NCBI GenBank assembly: GCA_012515365.1
Contig: JAAYYM010000041.1
Location: forward strand, 1-8,704
Length of the DNA: 8,704 nucleotides
DNA from: Clostridia bacterium
GTDB lineage: Bacteria > Bacillota_A > Clostridia > Lachnospirales > Lachnospiraceae
Reading direction: 5' to 3'
Shown: positions 1-8,554 of the stretch, piece after piece
How the letters are laid out: every line of letters begins with the position of its first letter
Numbering within the stretch: position 1 is the stretch's first letter
The notes under the pieces: generated by a model
Told to the model about the DNA's origin: nothing
The model's input: only the letters and a program-made list of their open reading frames with translations
The model's database searches: none
Program-made: the position numbers and the translations under genes

Positions 1-1725
1 AACCATTGGCAACCGCTGTGCGACATATAATGTAAGTTCATACAACATCTGGCTTTCTCCCATTGCCTGCAAATCCGACATTGTATAACCATTTTCTTCC
101 ATATAACTTTCCAAGTAATTCATCATTGTCTCTTGTGACATATCCTGATTTTCTATATCAAGACTTCTCGTGACATGTACCCTCACATAAGCTTTATTTC
201 CATCCTCAAAATATGATAATGTTTCACACGTATAGGTAATTTCCTGCAACCACCCATCTGCAATCTTTTCAATTTCAGCTATCTGGCTTTCATTTATTCC
301 ATACTTGCTAAGACGTGAAGTCAAACTGTTTGCTAGAACTTTCCCAAAATCGGTAACATCTGATGTTTCTCCATCATTGTAATACTTAATAAACTCTTCT
401 TTTTGATTATTGTCATAAATATCAAAAATCGGATCTTCCAGACTTCCGCCTTTTATCAAAGCATATAACATATGAACTGCTGTTTCAGGTGTCATGATAG
501 TTTTTGATTGCTCCACCTCTCCAGCTTCTGGCTCCCCTGCTTTTGGCTCCATCGGCGGTGTGTTTTGTGGCTCCTTATTTTTCTCCCCTTGCCCTGTTCC
601 TTGATCCGGAGTGGGAGTTGGAGTTGGCTTTGGCTTTGGATTTTTTGTTTTATGCATAACACTTTCCAAATAATTGTACCATTCTCCCACTTGCTTCACT
701 GCGCAATATGAGAATGGATACAGCCCACTCTCCTTGCTAATTATAATATTGGTTGTACCGTTCGCACATACACCGTTAATTAGTCCATTATCATAAACAT
801 CGAAGTTTCGGATTTTGCAGCACGAGATTACTTTTGCCTGCGTCTCTCCATGTTGCATTTCATATAAATATCCATCCTCTACACCAAGGAAAAAGAGATA
901 AGGACCATATACTCGCAGACTAGAACCCCAGATATAATCCATTGTCCCAGTTCCATTGTCCCTATCGATTCGTAAAATATACCCGCCATTCATACCATTA
1001 TCAGCAAGTTTTTGTATTTCCAAATACAAACATCCGTCTATTTCCGCCGAATTTACAATAGTCTCCCCTTCTCCACCGGCAATTTCGCCCTCAGGCATAC
1101 CCATACCATCCATCTTGCAGTAAGTCCAATCATCGCCATTTGCTGCTGTATTTCCAACTAGTGCAAATATATTCTCCCGGTTCATGGTCACCTGGTAATA
1201 TGCCTTATCGGTTTCGCCAATCTGCTGTATAACAGGTTTACTTTCCTCCTTAAGTGAGAGAATACCATCAACACGATACAGATTGCCACCATAAATCATT
1301 CTGGTAGCCGTACCATATAAATCAGTTCCCTCCTCTACTGTCAATTCAACATCTGTAAAAACCAAAGCATCTCCAATTACATTTAGGTTTGCAGCCAAAA
1401 AATCAGCAATCTGTACTTTCTCATGTGTGACTGTATTCTCTGCGGTCAATACATAATCATTTTCTGAATCCGGATAAAACGCCCAGTCGCCCTGTGTTGC
1501 ATAGAATCCGCCTACACTCAAAACTTCCGGTGTATTGCCTTTCAGATTCATGCCAGAATTGTCTGTGGGTTGCAGTGAAGCATCTAAATACATATAGAAA
1601 TCATTTTCAGTTTCTTCCGTTTTTGCATACGCCGTGTGCGGAAACAGCATAATCATAACTAATACAAATGAAATAGTTCGCCTTATTCCTGCTCCTATTC
1701 TTTTACGATTTTTAAGTTGTTCCAT
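1..1725 (-). CDS. Large secreted protein with signal peptide, Pro-rich linker and C-terminal helical/beta domain (3' end beyond window)
   Basis: The frame is open from the ATG at 1725 to base 1 (575 codons, no stop), so the C-terminus lies outside the window. A GGAGAGG ribosome site six bases upstream fixes the start; an in-frame ATG at 1749 lacks one. Residues 1-34 form a Sec signal peptide: basic KNRKR and RR, a hydrophobic core near 18-28, and a probable cleavage after AYA (34). Residues 35-350 are rich in aromatic, Gly and Asp residues with repeated strand-like phrases (GGNLYRVDG, DNGLING), suggesting a beta-rich or propeller-like fold. A Lys/Pro/Thr then Glu/Pro linker spans 361-405. From 411 a mixed helical domain begins at TPETAVHMLYALIKGG; its style resembles the DUF5105-type modules of Firmicute lipoproteins, but this is a weak match from memory. 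It is the last visible gene of a four-gene operon, 28 bases after its neighbour. The protein probably acts outside the membrane; function unknown. Confidence 0.85.
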   Translation of the reverse strand, partial: MEQLKNRKRIGAGIRRTISFVLVMIMLFPHTAYAKTEETENDFYMYLDASLQPTDNSGMNLKGNTPEVLSVGGFYATQGDWAFYPDSENDYVLTAENTVTHEKVQIADFLAANLNVIGDALVFTDVELTVEEGTDLYGTATRMIYGGNLYRVDGILSLKEESKPVIQQIGETDKAYYQVTMNRENIFALVGNTAANGDDWTYCKMDGMGMPEGEIAGGEGETIVNSAEIDGCLYLEIQKLADNGMNGGYILRIDRDNGTGTMDYIWGSSLRVYGPYLFFLGVEDGYLYEMQHGETQAKVISCCKIRNFDVYDNGLINGVCANGTTNIIISKESGLYPFSYCAVKQVGEWYNYLESVMHKTKNPKPKPTPTPTPDQGTGQGEKNKEPQNTPPMEPKAGEPEAGEVEQSKTIMTPETAVHMLYALIKGGSLEDPIFDIYDNNQKEEFIKYYNDGETSDVTDFGKVLANSLTSRLSKYGINESQIAEIEKIADGWLQEITYTCETLSYFEDGNKAYVRVHVTRSLDIENQDMSQETMMNYLESYMEENGYTMSDLQAMGESQMLYELTLYVAQRLPMV

Positions 1726-1753
1726 TTTCACCCTCTCCAATTGTTTCATATTA

Positions 1754-2170
1754 CTATTCGTCTTCCAAAATCATCTGTGTATCACTAGTAGGTACAACAA
1801 CGCCTGAATCGTTTAATGCTGCTTCATATGATTGAAAAGAAAGACGTTTACCGCTGTCATCTGTTATTTTTGCAGACTGTATCAAATCCTCCTGATTCAT
1901 AACCTGATCTTTTTTAACAGCAAACGAATATAGTAAGAAAACTACTAATATGGCAACCCCCGCGTAAGCTGCTAAAGAGACAATGTTGTTATTCTTTTTC
2001 TTTTCGGGTGCTAAATTATAACTTTTCTGAATGTACTCACCCGTTTCGTCATTAAACCAAATCATATGACGAATAGGCTTTCCCAATTCATTCTCTAATC
2101 GCATTTCTCTGTAATACAGACCACTTCCCGCATCATATGTATAGTTTTTAGGTGCTTTGTATTTTGCCAT
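1754..2170 (-). CDS. Small single-pass membrane protein with N-terminal aromatic (OCRE/WW-like) module
   Basis: 138 residues from the ATG at 2170 (MAKYKAPKNY). I prefer this to the in-frame ATG at 2194 because TAGGAG lies seven bases upstream; that ribosome site overlaps the TAG stop of the protease gene, so translation is probably coupled. Residues 1-53 align without gaps to the N-terminus of the 522-residue protein two genes upstream (21 identities over 53), sharing KY, P7, Y10, D13, GLYY (17-20), WFN (38-40), E42, GEY (44-46), Q48 and Y51. KKK at 56-58 precedes one transmembrane helix near 63-84, so the positive-inside rule places the aromatic module in the cytoplasm. The remaining roughly 54 residues, outside, are acidic, polar and have no recognised domain. 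Placement between the M48 protease and a large secreted protein suggests an adaptor or accessory subunit. Function is inference. Confidence 0.88.
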   Translation of the reverse strand: MAKYKAPKNYTYDAGSGLYYREMRLENELGKPIRHMIWFNDETGEYIQKSYNLAPEKKKNNNIVSLAAYAGVAILVVFLLYSFAVKKDQVMNQEDLIQSAKITDDSGKRLSFQSYEAALNDSGVVVPTSDTQMILEDE

Positions 2171-2180
2171 TTTGTTTCTC

Positions 2181-3878
2181 CTACAGTACAGCAAATCTCA
2201 CCTGTGCAGGTGTGACTGTTTCTATGATTTCTTGATCTTCTTCATATTGAATTGTCAAATTATCCTGACCTATTTCAAGAATTCTTGCAGGATAATAACC
2301 ACCTCCATTATTCCAATTTCCGAAGCATTGCATCTGTTTGAAAGCTTCATCTGTTTTAAAAATTTTTGAAACAGATATCGTTTGCTTAACCCCATCAAAA
2401 AACACGAAATCCACTTCCTGTTCAGATACCTTTTCTACCTGTCCGTAATAATACAATCCATCTCTAAAATATCTTGCAAAGCAATACTCACCAGGATTGA
2501 TTTTTTTTACTCTTTCCTGCTCTTCTCTCGCCCTTCTTTCGGCTTCCTCCAGCTCTTTTTTTTCGGCTTCGGCTTTCGCTTTTTCAGCAGCAATTTCCGA
2601 TAAGCTCTTTGTCACCCGTCCGGTTGTTGCATTGGACGGTGGTGCCTGCATCGGTGTCGCAGACATTGGTGGCGTCGGCATTCCCTGAACTCCCGATCGC
2701 ATTGGCTGTATTCCCACCGGCATTGGCGGTGGCGGTGGTGGTACCATCTGACCGCTGATCGGCATTGGCGGCGGTGGTGGTGCCATCTGAACGTTTGTCG
2801 GCATTGGCGGTGGCGGTGGTGCCATCTGACCCGTACCCGCATAGGCTACTTGTGTATTCATTTCTCGCTTCGTCTGGTATTGATTTTTTGTATCTCCTAC
2901 TTTATTCTTTACATTCTGCAAAAGTTCGCCCCCCTGACTTGTCACTTTATTCTTCAATTCAAAAAACTGCTCACCGAGCTTGCTCGATTCAGATGGTTCG
3001 TTAATTTTTAAAGAACCCGGTCTCCATTCCTCGATTGCATCCAAACGATCCGCCGTATCAGGATGTGAAGCACCAAGCGCTGCAAATACACTTTTCTCTT
3101 CTTTATCTCCAAAACTCTGTTCCAAAACATATAGAGCGCTATACAGATTCTGTGAAAACCCACACTCACATGAAAATGCATCCGCACGATATTCATTCAT
3201 ACGAGATGATTTCATATGGAATAGATTTCCGAGTTTTGTCCACAGACTCATCAGCCATACAAGCAACAAATCAATAAAGAAACTTGCAAGAATGCTTCCA
3301 ATTGGTCTTTCTTCCCCACCAGCCAGAATAACAACAAATGAAACAATGATTCTTACAATGAAAAAGACTGCTGTCAATAAGAAATTGCTGACATTAATAA
3401 CAAGAAGCATATCCGTATCTTTATTGGCGATATGTCCAAACTCATGACCTAAAATCCCCAGAATCTGCGAATCCTCTAATTCACAAAGGCCTCTTGTCAC
3501 GCACACCGTCTTTCTGCCCACCGCAAATGCATTCGGTATCATGCTTTTGCTCATAAATAGCTTGACATTATCTGAAATTGTAGGATCCAGTTGTTTTGCT
3601 CTTCTATAAGCCTCATTAAATAAAGGTTCCAGTCGATTCTTATACTTCTCTTTCTTAATCTTTTTACATCCACATTGCAATCTGAGAACAAATTCACCAA
3701 TCGGTGACAGTGCAATCGTTAAGCAAATTAAATAAAGAAAAATTGCCATTGGAATCATTTCTGGTAAAGCAAATCCTCCCAACAATGCTATGTACATTAC
3801 CATGTTCATACACAAATAGATGATGGTTCCCACATTATTTTTTTTAAATAGTCTTTTCATAAAATCAATTACATACAT
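2181..3878 (-). CDS. Membrane M48 (HtpX-like) zinc metalloprotease with polyproline repeat and C-terminal tandem Tudor-like domains
   Basis: 565 residues; AAAGGAG seven bases before the ATG supports the start. Probable transmembrane segments lie near 17-37, 40-62, 157-187 and 194-214. The zinc site is complete: HEFGH at 145-149 with E146 catalytic, and the third ligand E229 in NEYRAD. PNAFAVG (115-121) and SHPDTADRLDAI (271-282) are also typical of M48/HtpX peptidases, which cleave membrane or misfolded proteins at the cytoplasmic face. The usual family length is about 280-300 residues; this protein adds some 270. That tail holds a polyproline repeat with three PPPPPMP-type units (352-387), a charged Ala/Glu/Lys helix (423-460), and two related modules (about 463-508 and 517-562) of pattern CF..[YW]..[DG]G.YY followed by alternating strands, resembling Tudor/SH3-like barrels. 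The tail should be cytoplasmic. It is the second gene of the operon, 19 bases after its neighbour and 10 before the next. The protease call is firm; the Tudor-like call is moderate. Confidence 0.93.
   Translation of the reverse strand: MYVIDFMKRLFKKNNVGTIIYLCMNMVMYIALLGGFALPEMIPMAIFLYLICLTIALSPIGEFVLRLQCGCKKIKKEKYKNRLEPLFNEAYRRAKQLDPTISDNVKLFMSKSMIPNAFAVGRKTVCVTRGLCELEDSQILGILGHEFGHIANKDTDMLLVINVSNFLLTAVFFIVRIIVSFVVILAGGEERPIGSILASFFIDLLLVWLMSLWTKLGNLFHMKSSRMNEYRADAFSCECGFSQNLYSALYVLEQSFGDKEEKSVFAALGASHPDTADRLDAIEEWRPGSLKINEPSESSKLGEQFFELKNKVTSQGGELLQNVKNKVGDTKNQYQTKREMNTQVAYAGTGQMAPPPPPMPTNVQMAPPPPPMPISGQMVPPPPPPMPVGIQPMRSGVQGMPTPPMSATPMQAPPSNATTGRVTKSLSEIAAEKAKAEAEKKELEEAERRAREEQERVKKINPGEYCFARYFRDGLYYYGQVEKVSEQEVDFVFFDGVKQTISVSKIFKTDEAFKQMQCFGNWNNGGGYYPARILEIGQDNLTIQYEEDQEIIETVTPAQVRFAVL
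2193..2492 (-). other. Tandem Tudor-like/SH3-like domains at the C-terminus of the M48 protein
   Basis: Residues about 463-562 contain two copies of one module. Copy 1 has CFARYFRDGLYYYGQV then strand-like VDFVFFDG and ISVSKI. Copy 2 has CFGNWNNGGGYYPARI then LTIQYEED and VTPAQVRF. Aligned residues include C, F, an aromatic at +4, G, YY, a small residue then V/I, and an acidic turn after the third strand. This spacing (x-G-x-YY-x-A-x-[VI], then a V/I-x-[FY] strand, an acidic turn and a final strand) is that of Tudor barrels. The repeat is visible directly; the Tudor assignment is from motif memory and needs a structure or profile search. Confidence 0.55.
2709..2825 (-). repeat. In-frame tandem repeat encoding MAPPPPPMP-type polyproline units
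   Basis: Three successive copies of roughly 39-42 bases encode residues about 352-390 of the M48 protein: QMAPPPPPMPTNV, QMAPPPPPMPISG and QMVPPPPPPMPVGI. The third copy carries one extra Pro codon. A degenerate Pro/Met stretch follows (to about residue 414). The near-identical DNA (ggcattggcggtggcggtgg on the plus strand) suggests expansion by slippage or recombination, so copy number may vary between strains. Confidence 0.9.
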
Positions 3879-3897: not shown

Positions 3898-5466
3898 TTA
3901 ATATATTTTTTCAAACGAAACCTCATTTACGATTCCTTCCAAGTCAATCTGTAGCGCCCTGTCATTATAAATAACCCAATTTTGTGAAACTCCATTTAAA
4001 TAGACTTCCTCTGCCAGACACGGCACTTTATCATTAAATGCAAAATATTCTGTCTTATATCCATTGCCATCTACCGTAAAAAATTGTGTATCATAATCAC
4101 ATTCGCTAAAAAACAACCCATTCTCCAAAAGTGATGATGTGAAACTAACATTCCATATATCTATTTCACAATATTCATTTATGAAGTTTGGACTATAGCC
4201 AAATCGATTAATGTAATCAAACATATATTCCGAGTAACCGGCGTCTATCAAATCCGAGGCATCTGTTGTAGATAATATCTGTGTCTGTCCATTTGAGAAA
4301 TCATATTTTCCATAGCAAATCGTATAATCTCCCCATCCTCCATAATATAAACAGCCATTATAAATTGAGAAAGGACTAAATGCTTTAACCGACTGCTTTC
4401 CGCCAATACCGGTTGCCATTGTCAATGCATAATCAGTTGTCTGTAAATTTAATTCACCAGTTATCGGATCATAAATTCCTATATCCTGTCTTTCATTTTC
4501 TGCAAAAAACAAATAAATTTTACCGTCATATGCCTGCAAAAGAGAATAATCTTCATTAAAGAGCTGTTCCTCTTCTCCAGTGTTTTTATTTTTACGACAA
4601 TATGTATAATCTCCGCCATAATTAACTGAATAATAAACATAATCACCCATCACAGCAATTGAATAAATACCATCTATCGCTTCTGCAAATAACTCCGGCT
4701 CACCACCTGTTTTGGGAAATCTTATCATGTTCCCACTCGGTAGTCCGCCATTGTACATCCAACCTCCCATATCAACGCGAATTGCATACACGAATTGTTC
4801 ATCCTCATCTGCCAATTGCGTCACGTAATTACATGTTGCATAATTGGGAAACGGATAAATAGATGAACTCTCCTCTGTCAGGCTTTTCTCATCGTTTGAA
4901 TCAGAATTTGATGCAATTTCACTAGATAGGGCTGCACCTTCTGATGCGAATGCATCGGTCTCTTCAACTACTGCTGTATTTTCTGTGTTTTCTGTATTTT
5001 CAGTCATAACATTTACTTCTTTTCCATTGGCAGCATTCTTATCCGATAAACCTTTCACTACAAGAACGACAACGAAAATGACCAGCAGAGCACCAATAAT
5101 TGGAAGATAAGCTTTTCGCGAATCCCCCCTTTTGCTCTTAGTGTGTAATCTTTCATTTTCATATTCTTTATCTGCTTTGATATTTGTAATCTGAATTTCC
5201 GGTTCTGGCGGTGATTCCAATAATTTAGACTCTTCGAAAGATTGCGTATCCGATATATTCTGTGATACGTGTTGCATTGATGAATGTGCCGTTATATCGG
5301 CATTTTCAATTGGATACGTATATTGTGAGTATTCTCCGCTCTCAGTATTGAACCAAGTCACAATCTGCATCTGACTGCCGGTTTCGTCTACCCCTATAAT
5401 CTGAGAGTAATACAATCCCGTCCGTTCATCCAAAATGTAGCCCTCAGGCTCCCTGTACTTTCCCAT
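3898..5466 (-). CDS. Single-pass membrane protein with N-terminal aromatic module and propeller-like ectodomain
   Basis: 522 residues; the start ATG has AGGGAG about eleven bases upstream. Residues 1-53 are the same module as in the 138-residue protein downstream (GLYY 17-20, WFN 38-40, GEY 44-46). A polar, acidic linker with PPEPE (86-90) follows, then the basic KSKRGDSRK and one transmembrane helix at about 119-140. The positive-inside rule puts the N-terminal module in the cytoplasm and the C-terminal part outside. Residues 150-205 are a Ser/Thr/Glu/Asn-rich stalk including a TEN repeat (154-163). Residues about 205-522 show repeated strand phrases such as GDYVYYSVNYGG, YDGKIYLFF and NGCLYYGGWGD, reminiscent of the DUF5050-type propeller-like repeats of Firmicute surface proteins (resemblance from memory). 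It is the first gene of unit B, behind the conserved promoter block. It could be a sensor or docking receptor working with the M48 protease; that role is inferred only from gene order and modules. Confidence 0.9.
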   Translation of the reverse strand: MGKYREPEGYILDERTGLYYSQIIGVDETGSQMQIVTWFNTESGEYSQYTYPIENADITAHSSMQHVSQNISDTQSFEESKLLESPPEPEIQITNIKADKEYENERLHTKSKRGDSRKAYLPIIGALLVIFVVVLVVKGLSDKNAANGKEVNVMTENTENTENTAVVEETDAFASEGAALSSEIASNSDSNDEKSLTEESSSIYPFPNYATCNYVTQLADEDEQFVYAIRVDMGGWMYNGGLPSGNMIRFPKTGGEPELFAEAIDGIYSIAVMGDYVYYSVNYGGDYTYCRKNKNTGEEEQLFNEDYSLLQAYDGKIYLFFAENERQDIGIYDPITGELNLQTTDYALTMATGIGGKQSVKAFSPFSIYNGCLYYGGWGDYTICYGKYDFSNGQTQILSTTDASDLIDAGYSEYMFDYINRFGYSPNFINEYCEIDIWNVSFTSSLLENGLFFSECDYDTQFFTVDGNGYKTEYFAFNDKVPCLAEEVYLNGVSQNWVIYNDRALQIDLEGIVNEVSFEKIY

Positions 5467-5747: not shown

Positions 5748-6371
5748 CTACCTCGGATCACGATCTCCTTCAATATCATAATACCAGTCCCACCCCGCTT
5801 CTGCTTCTGTTATATCCTTATCTGTCCTATGAAAGATAATGCTGTCAACAGTGTCCGTTCCAGACAGCCAGCTTATTATCATGCCACCGCTATAACATGT
5901 GTATGTGATGGTATCGCTGGTCTGATCATAGATAAGCTCCTCTTTCGTTTCTTCCATCATACCCGAATCATCAGGTGCCGGGCAATCATGGCAATCACTG
6001 AATTCCATTCCATTTTCAATATCACTCACACAGGAACCATCTTCTCTGGTTACTTTGAACCATTCATCATGCGCAGGACAATATATAATTGCATCAAGTG
6101 CAAATGAGCTATCTGCCAATGCTCTCTCCCGTACTCCCAATATCCAGCCATCCTCCGATTCCCATACACCGGTCAGTGTTTTTTCATCTTCTGTCAAACG
6201 ACTATTCTCAAGAATAGCACCTACGGGTTTAGAGTCCACAGTTTCCTCTGTTTGTATTTCACTCATTACTTCTCCATCGCTTTCCTTTTGCTTGTTAATA
6301 AAAAGGAAAATGCCAACACCGATTCCTGCTATTAATAGTATACATATCACAATGATTCCAATCTTTTTCAT
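5748..6371 (-). CDS. Membrane-anchored Cys-containing protein, unknown function
   Basis: I favour the ATG at 6371 (MKKIGIIVIC, 207 residues) because AGGTGA lies five bases upstream; the frame also opens at a GTG at 6380 and an ATG at 6374, which are too close to that ribosome site. Residues 4-26 are a single hydrophobic anchor without a lipobox, so it is probably an uncleaved N-terminal helix with the rest outside. An acidic linker runs to about 60. The domain from about 67 (LTGVWESEDGWILGV) is strand-rich. It carries five Cys (98, 114, 127, 130, 159) within YCPAHDEW, SCVSD and CHDCPAP, which suggests metal binding or disulfides, plus Trp-rich WDWYYD near the C-terminus. The GxW start recalls small lipocalin-like barrels, but I do not recognise the family. 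It is the last gene of unit A, 24 bases after the lipoprotein gene and before the terminator. Confidence 0.85.
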   Translation of the reverse strand: MKKIGIIVICILLIAGIGVGIFLFINKQKESDGEVMSEIQTEETVDSKPVGAILENSRLTEDEKTLTGVWESEDGWILGVRERALADSSFALDAIIYCPAHDEWFKVTREDGSCVSDIENGMEFSDCHDCPAPDDSGMMEETKEELIYDQTSDTITYTCYSGGMIISWLSGTDTVDSIIFHRTDKDITEAEAGWDWYYDIEGDRDPR

Positions 6372-6395
6372 CATCTTCACCTATATCTTTTTTTA

Positions 6396-6897
6396 TTATT
6401 GTTTACTGAAGGTTTCTTCATAAGTCCCATCATCATATTCCAGTTTAAGAACAATTTGATTATCGGGTAAAAACGTGACTGTGCAGAAGTCTAAATATGT
6501 AGGACGTCTAATAGAGAAGTTTCCATCTGCATTCTGCTCAAGCTCGCTTGCTGAAAATGGAGAGCAAATACCATCCGGGCTTGTTCGTGTAGCATTGTTA
6601 ACCGCAATCTCTTCAACCTTATAAACACGTCCATTATTCCCATCATAGCCGATAAATGAGCATGTATTATTAGTACTGGTATTTATGTAGGTTCCAACAT
6701 AAGTCTCTAGCTGTTCTTCTGATAGTGCTTGTGTATTTGCATTCGGAGTACTGCTATCTGCTGCCTGTGTATTGCTCTCTGGAACATTATTATTTGCAGT
6801 ATTAGTTTTTTCCGTACTTAAGTTATCTATTACTTCCACAAGCTACCAGCGTTGTCATTATCAGCACTGTTGCTAAAATCAAAAACACTTTTTTCAT
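6396..6897 (-). pseudogene. Lipoprotein gene split by a one-base frameshift after the lipobox Cys
   Basis: From the ATG at 6897 the frame encodes a textbook lipoprotein signal: MKKVF, a hydrophobic core, then the lipobox LVAC with Cys20. It then reaches a TAA after CGSNR. The +1 frame continues at once as DNLSTEK and runs 143 residues to the stop at 6396. Removing one base near 6823-6828 would join them into a protein of about 166 residues (CGSNDNLSTEK). The body begins with an Asn/Thr/Ser-rich tether, normal after a lipidated Cys, then a domain from about LETYVGTYI with three Cys and a C-terminal strand pair (VTFLPDNQIVLKLEYDDGTYEETF). A ribosome site (GAGG, then AAGG) precedes the ATG. Possible explanations are a real null mutation, a sequencing error or recoding; the intact body argues for an error or a very recent lesion. 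A GTG at 6839 could start the body alone, but it would lack export. Confidence 0.8.
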
Positions 6898-7007: not shown

Positions 7008-7060
7008 TGTTATAATTGAATTGACTAGAAACAACCATATACACCACCCAGAAAGGAGTT
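7008..7060 (+). promoter_or_regulatory. Transposase promoter and ribosome site
   Basis: An extended -10, TGTTATAAT (7008-7016), lies about 50 bases before the transposase ATG at 7066. The region where a -35 should be (6988-6993) is not consensus. AAAGGAG (7053-7059) is the ribosome site, six bases before the ATG. Confidence 0.55.
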
Positions 7061-7065
7061 ATCTT

Positions 7066-7582
7066 ATGGCTATTATACCATGTAATCAGCTTTCTTTGGC
7101 AGATGTTTTTTCAGATTGTCAGGATATTTATGAATCTGACAAACCTGAATTTCTGTCTCTTCTTCAATCTAACATTAATCTTGATGAGATTATTCCTGAT
7201 TCCTTTCGGAATCACTTCTATGCATCAACGGGAAGATCCCGTAAATACCCTTTACATGCCTTTTTATGGGCACTTATCATCCAGCGGATTTTTTCAATCC
7301 CTACTGATTCGTTACTTCTTGTTTTTCTCAAGTATTCCAGGCATCTTCGTGAATTCTGCGGTTTTACTAAGGTTCCTGATGCTTCTAAGATTACTCGTTT
7401 CAAACAGGATTTTCTTTCAGACTTACAATCAGTTTTTGATAATCTCGTTGATGTTACCGAACCAATCTGCCAAGCTATTGACTCTTCCAAGGCAGATATG
7501 ACTATTTTTGATTCATCTGGTATTGAAGCCTGGGTAACTGAAAATAATCCTAAGTTTGCTAACCGAATCATTAAACAGCTAC
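7066..7582 (+). pseudogene. Truncated DDE transposase (IS1182-like, DUF772-type N-terminus)
   Basis: It starts at MAIIPCNQLSL behind AAAGGAG. Residues about 50-125 (STGRSRKYPLHAFLWALII, then ITRFKQDF) match the helical N-terminal domain common to IS5/IS1182-type transposases. MTIFDSSGIEAWV at about 145-157 carries what should be the first catalytic Asp. Homology as I remember it stops after NRIIKQL (about residue 172). The frame stays open to 7716, but that tail is antisense to the neighbouring lipoprotein gene and is not transposase. The second Asp and the Glu of the DDE triad are missing (full-length members exceed 400 residues), so it should be inactive. It is the only plus-strand gene and sits between two lipoprotein genes. 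The family name is a memory-based call; the truncation follows from the overlap with the lipoprotein reading frame. Confidence 0.8.
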
Positions 7583-8554
7583 CAGTCCAAGCCCTTTTTT
7601 GTAATCTTCTTTATGAAGTTCACCCATTTCTACGTTCATATAATATGCTCCATATACTACTCCTGGAAATCTCTGATAACCGCGTGAATCCACGTCTTCA
7701 CAGATATAATCAATAATTACATCGTCGCCCACCATTTTTGAGTAAGTAGTAAAATGTCCGTCGCCGTCATCAAGATACCAGATGACATTTTGTACTTCAT
7801 ATTCCTTTGTCACTCTGATTTCCGTAAAAACATTAGCCCAATCACTAAAATCTCCAACTCTGCTTTCGTCCAATCCAAAATTTGTATAAAACTTATATCC
7901 ATTCTTAAAACATTCATCTAGGTCTCCATTACCATATTTTCCTGCATAATCAGAATACTCAACACTCTTTGCAAATATTTCTCCATAGTATTCTTTATAC
8001 ATGACCACAAAAAAATCCAGCTCGCCATTTACCATGGCCTGACTTACACAATCTGCGTCACTATCATGATACGGAAATACATCCGGCATATAATGAGCCA
8101 TACTGCTCTCGTTACCGTTAAAATTCGGCACATTTGTAATATCAATAGTATTGAATCCAATCCACGATCCCTCTTCACAGCCTATCGAACACGACATACC
8201 ATATTCATCACGATATATTGAGTTCTCACTTCCCTCATATGTAAAACAAACAACCGGAACCCCGCTTTTAAAGAGGTCTGTTTGTATTCTTGTCACCTCA
8301 CATTTTTGTCCATTCACAGTAATTCCATTATTTGAAATCACTAAATAATTTGTTCCGTCTGAATATGCACCGTTATATGAAGACAGCGTTTCACTAAATT
8401 GACTGTCAGTTTGTGTCTCTTCTCCTCTACCCTCAGTAAGTGATGTACTCTGAACAGCTTCAGTCGCTGCTCCTGCTCCATCATCTGAAACTTCCTTCGC
8501 ACCACATGCCAAAAGACCTATTACCAAATATCCAGACAATACGATTGCTATCAT
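7571..8554 (-). CDS. Lipoprotein of unknown function; start region frameshifted and 3' end fused to IS remnant
   Basis: The open frame (327 residues from the ATG at 8554) begins MIAIVLSGYL and has the lipobox LLAC with Cys17, then an acidic Gly/Ser/Thr tether to about 55. The body opens with LSSYNGAYSDGTNYL, resembling LETYVGTYI in the lipoprotein downstream, and is rich in aromatic residues, Asp and Cys (85, 103, 122, 126, 169, 215, 285). I recognise no family. The start is odd: the good ribosome site GGAGG (8577-8581) fits an ATG at 8564, ten bases upstream and out of frame. With one A fewer in the A8 run after that ATG, the protein would start MKKMIAIVLSG, a standard signal. The last three residues and the TAA come from DNA that also encodes the transposase remnant, so the original C-terminus was probably lost. 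It is the first visible gene of unit A, behind promoter repeat copy 2. Confidence 0.8.
   Translation of the reverse strand: MIAIVLSGYLVIGLLACGAKEVSDDGAGAATEAVQSTSLTEGRGEETQTDSQFSETLSSYNGAYSDGTNYLVISNNGITVNGQKCEVTRIQTDLFKSGVPVVCFTYEGSENSIYRDEYGMSCSIGCEEGSWIGFNTIDITNVPNFNGNESSMAHYMPDVFPYHDSDADCVSQAMVNGELDFFVVMYKEYYGEIFAKSVEYSDYAGKYGNGDLDECFKNGYKFYTNFGLDESRVGDFSDWANVFTEIRVTKEYEVQNVIWYLDDGDGHFTTYSKMVGDDVIIDYICEDVDSRGYQRFPGVVYGAYYMNVEMGELHKEDYKKGLGLVAV

Follow-up and report, generated by a model that had tools for sequence, protein, structure and literature searches.

Tudor folds are familiar above all from eukaryotes, in proteins that recognise chemical marks carried by other proteins, and their apparent presence on a bacterial membrane protease raises the question of what such a domain does there. 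The case arises in an 8,704-nucleotide stretch of DNA from a Clostridia bacterium with kinship to the Lachnospiraceae, referred to here as the window, in which gene B is predicted to encode an M48 membrane protease followed by a polyproline part, a charged stretch and a tandem Tudor tail. Is this tail a component of the protease, or an element that can be joined to it?

Gene B runs from an ATG at position 3878 to a stop codon at 2181-2183, with GGAG seven bases upstream of the ATG (Table 1). Promoter and terminator scans gave no signal above shuffled level. An earlier, sequence-only reading had described a complete peptidase of almost twice the normal HtpX length, and both descriptions hold. 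The M48 match passes the Pfam cut-off (76.5 bits versus 20.3), the HEFGH and NEYRAD motifs are in place, and the 565 residues compare with 285-338 positions in the eight NCBIfam HtpX models. All eight models match the window protein, and none passes its equivalog cut-off (best 58.1 versus 341 bits). The conservation of the two motifs was read from an alignment of 18 sequences, comprising the window protein and 17 of the fused homologues P0001-P0030 described below; E229 of NEYRAD is presumably the third zinc ligand of M48. Gene B is the sole PF01435 match in genome G001. The N-terminus and active site are predicted to be cytosolic, which the basic flanks of residues 15-67 fit. The tail is also predicted to be cytoplasmic, as had been proposed, consistent with hydropathy and charge, and we take the topology of HtpX to agree with a cytosolic active site and tail.

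Table 1. Features of gene B and its neighbours in the window
Feature	Residues	Position	Strand	Basis or remark
Gene A: 522-aa single-pass membrane protein		3898..5466	-	
N-terminal aromatic module of gene A	1-55	5302..5466	-	weakly OCRE-like, 19.8 bits vs 24.7
Gene B: M48 membrane protease + polyproline + charged stretch + tandem Tudor tail		2181..3878	-	565 aa ORF
Hydrophobic stretch, probably two membrane helices	15-67	3678..3836	-	hydropathy; both flanks basic
Peptidase M48 domain	105-285	3024..3566	-	Pfam PF01435, E 3.1e-21
HEFGH zinc-binding motif	145-149	3432..3446	-	5/5 residues invariant, 18 aligned sequences
Hydrophobic stretches	155-190 and 191-214	3237..3416	-	hydropathy
NEYRAD	228-233	3180..3197	-	invariant, 18 aligned sequences
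Proline-rich array, three PPPPP(P)MP stretches	353-388	2715..2822	-	motif positions, motif census
Charged stretch	421-460	2499..2618	-	12 K/R, 11 D/E
Tudor-like repeat 1	461-515	2334..2498	-	domain scan, model, superposition
Tudor-like repeat 2, with W522, Y528, Y529, Y545, E547	516-565	2184..2333	-	
Gene C: aromatic module + one hydrophobic helix		1754..2170	-	138 aa from ATG at 2170
N-terminal aromatic module of gene C	1-56	2003..2170	-	OCRE 14.5 bits, cut-off 24.7
Gene D: N-terminal hydrophobic signal-like stretch		1..1749	-	cut by window end; counterpart in L001

The repeats that the sequence-only reading had noted in the tail are present, with PPPPPMP at residues 354 and 367 and PPPPPPMP at 380. 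The DNA under the polyproline part is a 39-base repeat (2718-2831, Tandem Repeats Finder). A helix at residues 426-456 of the charged stretch appears only in a low-confidence single-sequence model; that model, which covers the whole protein, is poor (pLDDT 48.5) and was kept out of the fold searches. Two repeats follow, previously described as CF..Y..DG.YY modules, with cores CFARYFRDGLYYYGQV (466-481) and CFGNWNNGGGYYPARI (518-533). Both patterns are matched by 30/30 fused homologues and by 38/38 separate proteins, and 15 columns of the tail are invariant across 14 diverse aligned members, so the two repeats are not due to chance.

The model of the Tudor pair shows a confident fold. Model and superposition together predict a tandem Tudor barrel, in keeping with the Tudor-like strand spacing noticed earlier, and the fold prediction proposed at that time as a check returned an SH3-like barrel twice. 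On this modelling, which establishes the fold computationally, the tail is predicted to be a 53BP1-like tandem Tudor domain. The window protein falls below the Tudor-type Pfam cut-offs (TUDOR 19.4 versus 23, DUF4537 18.1 versus 27), and five of ten separate homologues scanned, from the 38, pass one. By whole-protein score, P0051 matches Agenet, and P0067, P0069, P0073 and P0083 match SMN_Tudor. A tail profile built from the fused relatives alone ranks Tudor chains first, but at E 0.064; wider tail profiles reach Tudor chains at E 0.0032 and then 2e-5. A phmmer search with P0073 alone was uninformative (best SAKe6AC-LB at 1.7e-4, with a single Tudor chain, SPF30, at 0.79).

How the tail is distributed among proteases was addressed by a protein search with the window protein, which listed 50 matches. 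Among these, P0001-P0030 are 57-99% identical to the query, and HExGH and the tail are found in all 30; every close homologue found thus carries the tail. Neither of the outcomes that the sequence-only reading had named as refuting it, a fold other than an SH3/Tudor barrel or a tail missing from close homologues, was therefore obtained. The names of the MAGs encoding P0023 and P0030 are Lachnospiraceae. The next matches, P0031-P0048, are 33-52% identical over 49-73% of the query, and their precomputed Pfam annotation gives M48 alone or with a zinc ribbon, GYF or FHA. Neither a PPP-x-P stretch nor the repeat 2 core pattern occurs in any of these 18, of which 14 sequences were read and five domain-scanned. 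The tail is thus an addition made in one lineage to an M48 core that in other relatives takes different small domains. P0032 and P0036 end in GYF_2 or FHA, other peptide readers on a related protease core. Two remaining matches were set aside. One, P0049, has an M56 domain and PPPPPPMPP stretches; the list gives it no match to the tail, and its polyproline may have matched by chance. The other is P0050 (M48/M56, 33% over 26%).

The tail also occurs without a protease. In genome G474, the single match to the window protein covers the tail only and lies in a 239-aa ORF in which no M48 domain was found. A search with this ORF listed 38 proteins of 158-281 aa with a tandem Tudor domain and no HExGH. 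When a strict proline motif is defined as P(3 or more)-[LMIF]-P-x-[GDN]-[MLFI], it is present in 37/38 of these separate proteins, with 95 instances in total (typically PPPPPLPAGM and PPPPPLPEGM); the exception, P0057, is also the shortest of the 38. Among fused proteins, 23/30 have the strict motif (26 instances), many stretches being altered to PPPPPMPISGQ or PPPPPMPTNVQ, and one of the three window motifs has the G-hydrophobic end (PVGI). The tail, with its proline motifs, charged stretch and tandem Tudor domain, is therefore portable as a cassette, and computation establishes both this portability and the regularity of the motif. That relatives make the tail as a protein of its own suggests an adaptor that plugs in, not a component of the protease.

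Tail profiles were searched at E 0.001 in genome samples that overlap and always include their centre genome, with matches in 1/250 family genomes (profile A2), 11/295 order genomes, 1/280 genomes of the G474 family, 2/145 and 1/116 relatives (all A6), and 1/348 phylum genomes (A7). Nine of the 11 order matches are diverged tandem Tudor domains, either small proteins or joined to other parts. In other genomes of the order, an apparent zinc ribbon precedes the diverged tandem Tudor domain of L034, L035 and L036; an apparent membrane helix is present as well in L034 and L035, and L035 continues into a glycosyl-hydrolase-like part.

Genes A, B, C and D are co-directional, separated by 19, 10 and 4 bases, and locus L001 holds four counterparts in identical order. 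Genes A and C (the latter given in the ORF list with a TTG start and 146 aa) share a module of about 55 residues, Y..P..Y.YD..[ST]GLYY...G......WF...[ST]GEY.Q..Y, followed in each by one hydrophobic helix with four basic residues directly before it. The L001 counterpart of gene A weakly matches DUF5050 (24.2 bits, cut-off 27), and PADLOC models gave one weak match, to gene A (E 0.0081). In G474 and G554, several module membrane proteins surround a separate cassette gene. The cassette adjoins single-pass module membrane proteins in 4/4 contexts read (window, L001, G474 and G554), a computationally established clustering that amounts to about three contexts, the G474 and G554 loci being near-identical. 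A search with the gene A module recovered seven gene A homologues among 17 candidates and missed other module proteins; five of the seven listed homologues probably lie on the same contigs as fused homologues, since their contigs match those in length.

By reading, genes resembling solute-binding proteins and sensor kinases were recognised near the clusters of G001, G188, G474 and G362, and a response regulator near those of G001, G188 and G362. Module architectures vary: a 438-aa protein of G001 (L012, 4643-5959, minus strand) has two aromatic modules in tandem before a hydrophobic helix, and a module protein of G188 (L011, 4345-5646, minus strand) ends in a NADase_transloc F5/8-type domain (E 4.7e-31). 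Elsewhere in the window, a 231-aa DUF772 transposase ORF (7021-7716, plus strand), perhaps a piece of an insertion element, overlaps the end of the opposite-strand ORF 7571-8554, which has a lipoprotein-like start. The minus-strand ORFs 5748-6380, 6396-6839 and 7571-8554 (210, 147 and 327 aa) have no Pfam match over cut-off.

The aromatic module bears some resemblance to OCRE domains. Pfam OCRE (PF17780) matches 12/14 module members at E up to 0.05, all below cut-off (best E 1.9e-4, 21.8 bits versus 24.7), and 5/10 whole module proteins at 0.05. In the PDB, module profiles ranked unrelated chains ahead of RBM5, which came up only with E values of 0.53 and 4.4. With scores below the Pfam cut-off and no PDB profile support, OCRE identity was not accepted; judged from its sequence, the module perhaps works like OCRE rather than being one. 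According to PMC5127646, the RBM5 OCRE domain uses a surface of tyrosines to bind proline-rich motifs with avidity, and favours motifs flanked by arginines. No arginine lies within three residues of the window proline motifs; P0023, P0024, P0025 and P0028 have one C-terminal of the motif (GMRP).

Co-occurrence of module and cassette was followed across genomes. Module profile A3 matched 3/250 genomes and A4 matched 7/295 order genomes, of which G001, G474 and G362 were accepted after reading. The other four were not counted: G291 and G350 match within large enzymes, apparently by chance (E 4e-4 to 5e-4), and in G309 and G469 the matches fall within large proteins of other kinds. Close-cassette matches in the same order sample are G001 and G474, a co-occurrence that is partly circular, as G474 was found by module search and its cassette then entered the wider tail profile. 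Because 8/9 genomes with a diverged tandem Tudor domain in this sample have no module match, the link to modules holds for the close proline cassette only and not for tandem Tudor domains in general. In G362, a single module and a diverged tandem Tudor domain lie in separate places. G188 has genes like A, C and D, and G169 has a module at a contig end; in neither genome did the window protein, the motif pattern or M48 give a match.

Taken together, the reading we favour, tentatively and at somewhat less than an even chance, is that the cassette is an adaptor that docks the protease to module membrane proteins while the Tudor pair takes a second ligand. In the cytosol, the PPPPP[LM]P-x-G-hydrophobic repeats would form polyproline helices that dock onto the aromatic modules of A and C, the neighbouring proteins, with avidity gained by repetition. 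The Tudor pair may recognise another peptide, whose lysine or arginine is possibly modified and which belongs either to a client or to the assembly itself. The fusion seen in the window lineage would keep the protease at a receptor cluster and let it cleave either the proteins of that cluster or clients delivered by the Tudor domain. What weighs most against this model is that G188 and G169 have modules but no cassette, and that the motif is relaxed among the fused proteins. The sub-threshold OCRE resemblance, the partial circularity of the co-occurrence count, the lack of arginines by the window motifs, and the G362 module with its diverged Tudor domain elsewhere also count against it.

The residues of the putative Tudor pocket bear on the second ligand. 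Position 522 in repeat 2 is W in 30/30 fused proteins; among the 38 separate proteins, 19 have W there, 18 have Y and one has H. At the position of Y528, 68/68 proteins have Y or F, and Y545 is present in 68/68, followed by D, E or K and then E. Position 470 in repeat 1 is Y in 30/30 fused proteins and S in 38/38 separate proteins. We take 522, 528, 545 and 470 to correspond to positions that form the cage in known Tudor domains. For repeat 2, a pocket of the methyl-binding type is plausible, not proven; for repeat 1, a full aromatic cage is not general, because of the serine at 470 in all separate proteins. The suggestion of methylated ligands in the sequence-only reading may therefore hold for repeat 2, where W522, Y528 and Y545 are kept with acidic neighbours, and does not extend to a general cage in repeat 1. 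Its other suggestion, proline-rich ligands for the Tudor pair, is less likely than the reverse, since the proline motif belongs to the same protein and is itself repeated and ligand-like. The recruitment of substrates or partners that it proposed is an inference.

The same serine at 470 also fits the strongest competing explanation, in which the ligand of the Tudor pair is nucleic acid or a peptide without modification, and a different protein of the cytosol, instead of the A and C modules, recognises the proline motif. DNA-binding Tudor and chromo-like domains are known, as PMC5906684 indicates, and G188 keeps modules without the motif. However, the clustering of cassette and modules in all four contexts and an aromatic W or Y at position 522 in 67/68 proteins speak against it. 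We consider this explanation unlikely, although a serious competitor.

A further alternative, which we hold to be distinctly improbable, is that the tail serves the protease itself, in autoregulation or dimerisation, with the polyproline merely a flexible spacer and the Tudor pair packing on the protease or on another copy. The constant company of tail and protease in P0001-P0030 would agree with this, as would the free variation of spacer length and motif number among homologues, the lack of a PPP-x-P stretch in P0030 and the seven fused proteins without the strict motif. Nevertheless, 38 proteins have the cassette without a protease, a profile search at E 0.001 found no M48 in G474 or G554, and the motif of the separate proteins is more regular than a spacer needs.

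An extension of the adaptor model is more speculative still, and we give it little credence: a bacterial membrane signalling complex with the grammar of eukaryotic splicing or chromatin assemblies, in which a proline-rich Tudor adaptor would meet OCRE-like readers on several receptors, and a protease fused in one lineage would let a (possibly methylated) mark direct membrane proteolysis. Finally, it is barely credible that the tail has no function and is a low-complexity extension arisen by degeneration or chance: the proline array is a 39-base tandem DNA repeat of a kind expandable by slippage, but the confident fold, the conservation over 68 proteins and the 15 invariant columns contradict it, and for the Tudor part conservation has already refuted it.

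Tandem Tudor domains have been studied mainly as eukaryotic readers of methylated proteins. A bacterial tandem Tudor domain predicted to be cytosolic provides a system in which to ask what such domains read without chromatin, and the tail of gene B a way to ask how a membrane protease is aimed at its targets. Our findings also suggest that, within this group, a single M48 catalytic core is combined interchangeably with different small binding domains, namely Tudor, FHA, GYF or zinc ribbon. Searches of an open-licence collection of papers found no description of a tandem Tudor domain on an M48 protease or of a proline-rich Tudor cassette. What is new here is the portability of the tail, i.e., the cassette with and without the protease.

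Several known systems resemble parts of this arrangement. HtpX and other M48 membrane proteases share with gene B the M48 domain, HExxH, the NEYRAD region and hydrophobic stretches around the active site, to which gene B adds a tail of some 270 residues. M48 relatives also have a small binding domain at the end of a related M48 core (zinc ribbon and GYF_2 in P0032, FHA in P0036, zinc ribbons in P0033, P0038 and P0042), but the domain is a different one, with no PPP-x-P stretch and no Tudor match. For bacterial chromo-like domains, PMC5906684 describes consistent secretion, under-representation in Firmicutes and, in some cases, fusion to caspase-like or zincin-like peptidases. The likeness lies in a chromo- or Tudor-like domain on a bacterial peptidase, whereas the gene B product is predicted to be cytosolic, and its domain is tandem, on M48, with relatives labelled Lachnospiraceae. 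The spliceosomal OCRE domain and the proline-rich Sm tails, as PMC5127646 describes them, offer a tyrosine-rich module, a repeated proline motif with a G-hydrophobic end and avidity by repeats; compared with the OCRE ligand RPPP(P)G-hydrophobic-R given there, the window motif has an extra residue between P and G and no flanking arginines. For the tandem Tudor domains of 53BP1 and Crb2, identity with the bacterial tail is only 12-16% and the pocket residues are kept only in part, and the bacterial domain differs in sitting on a protease or in a separate protein together with a proline array.
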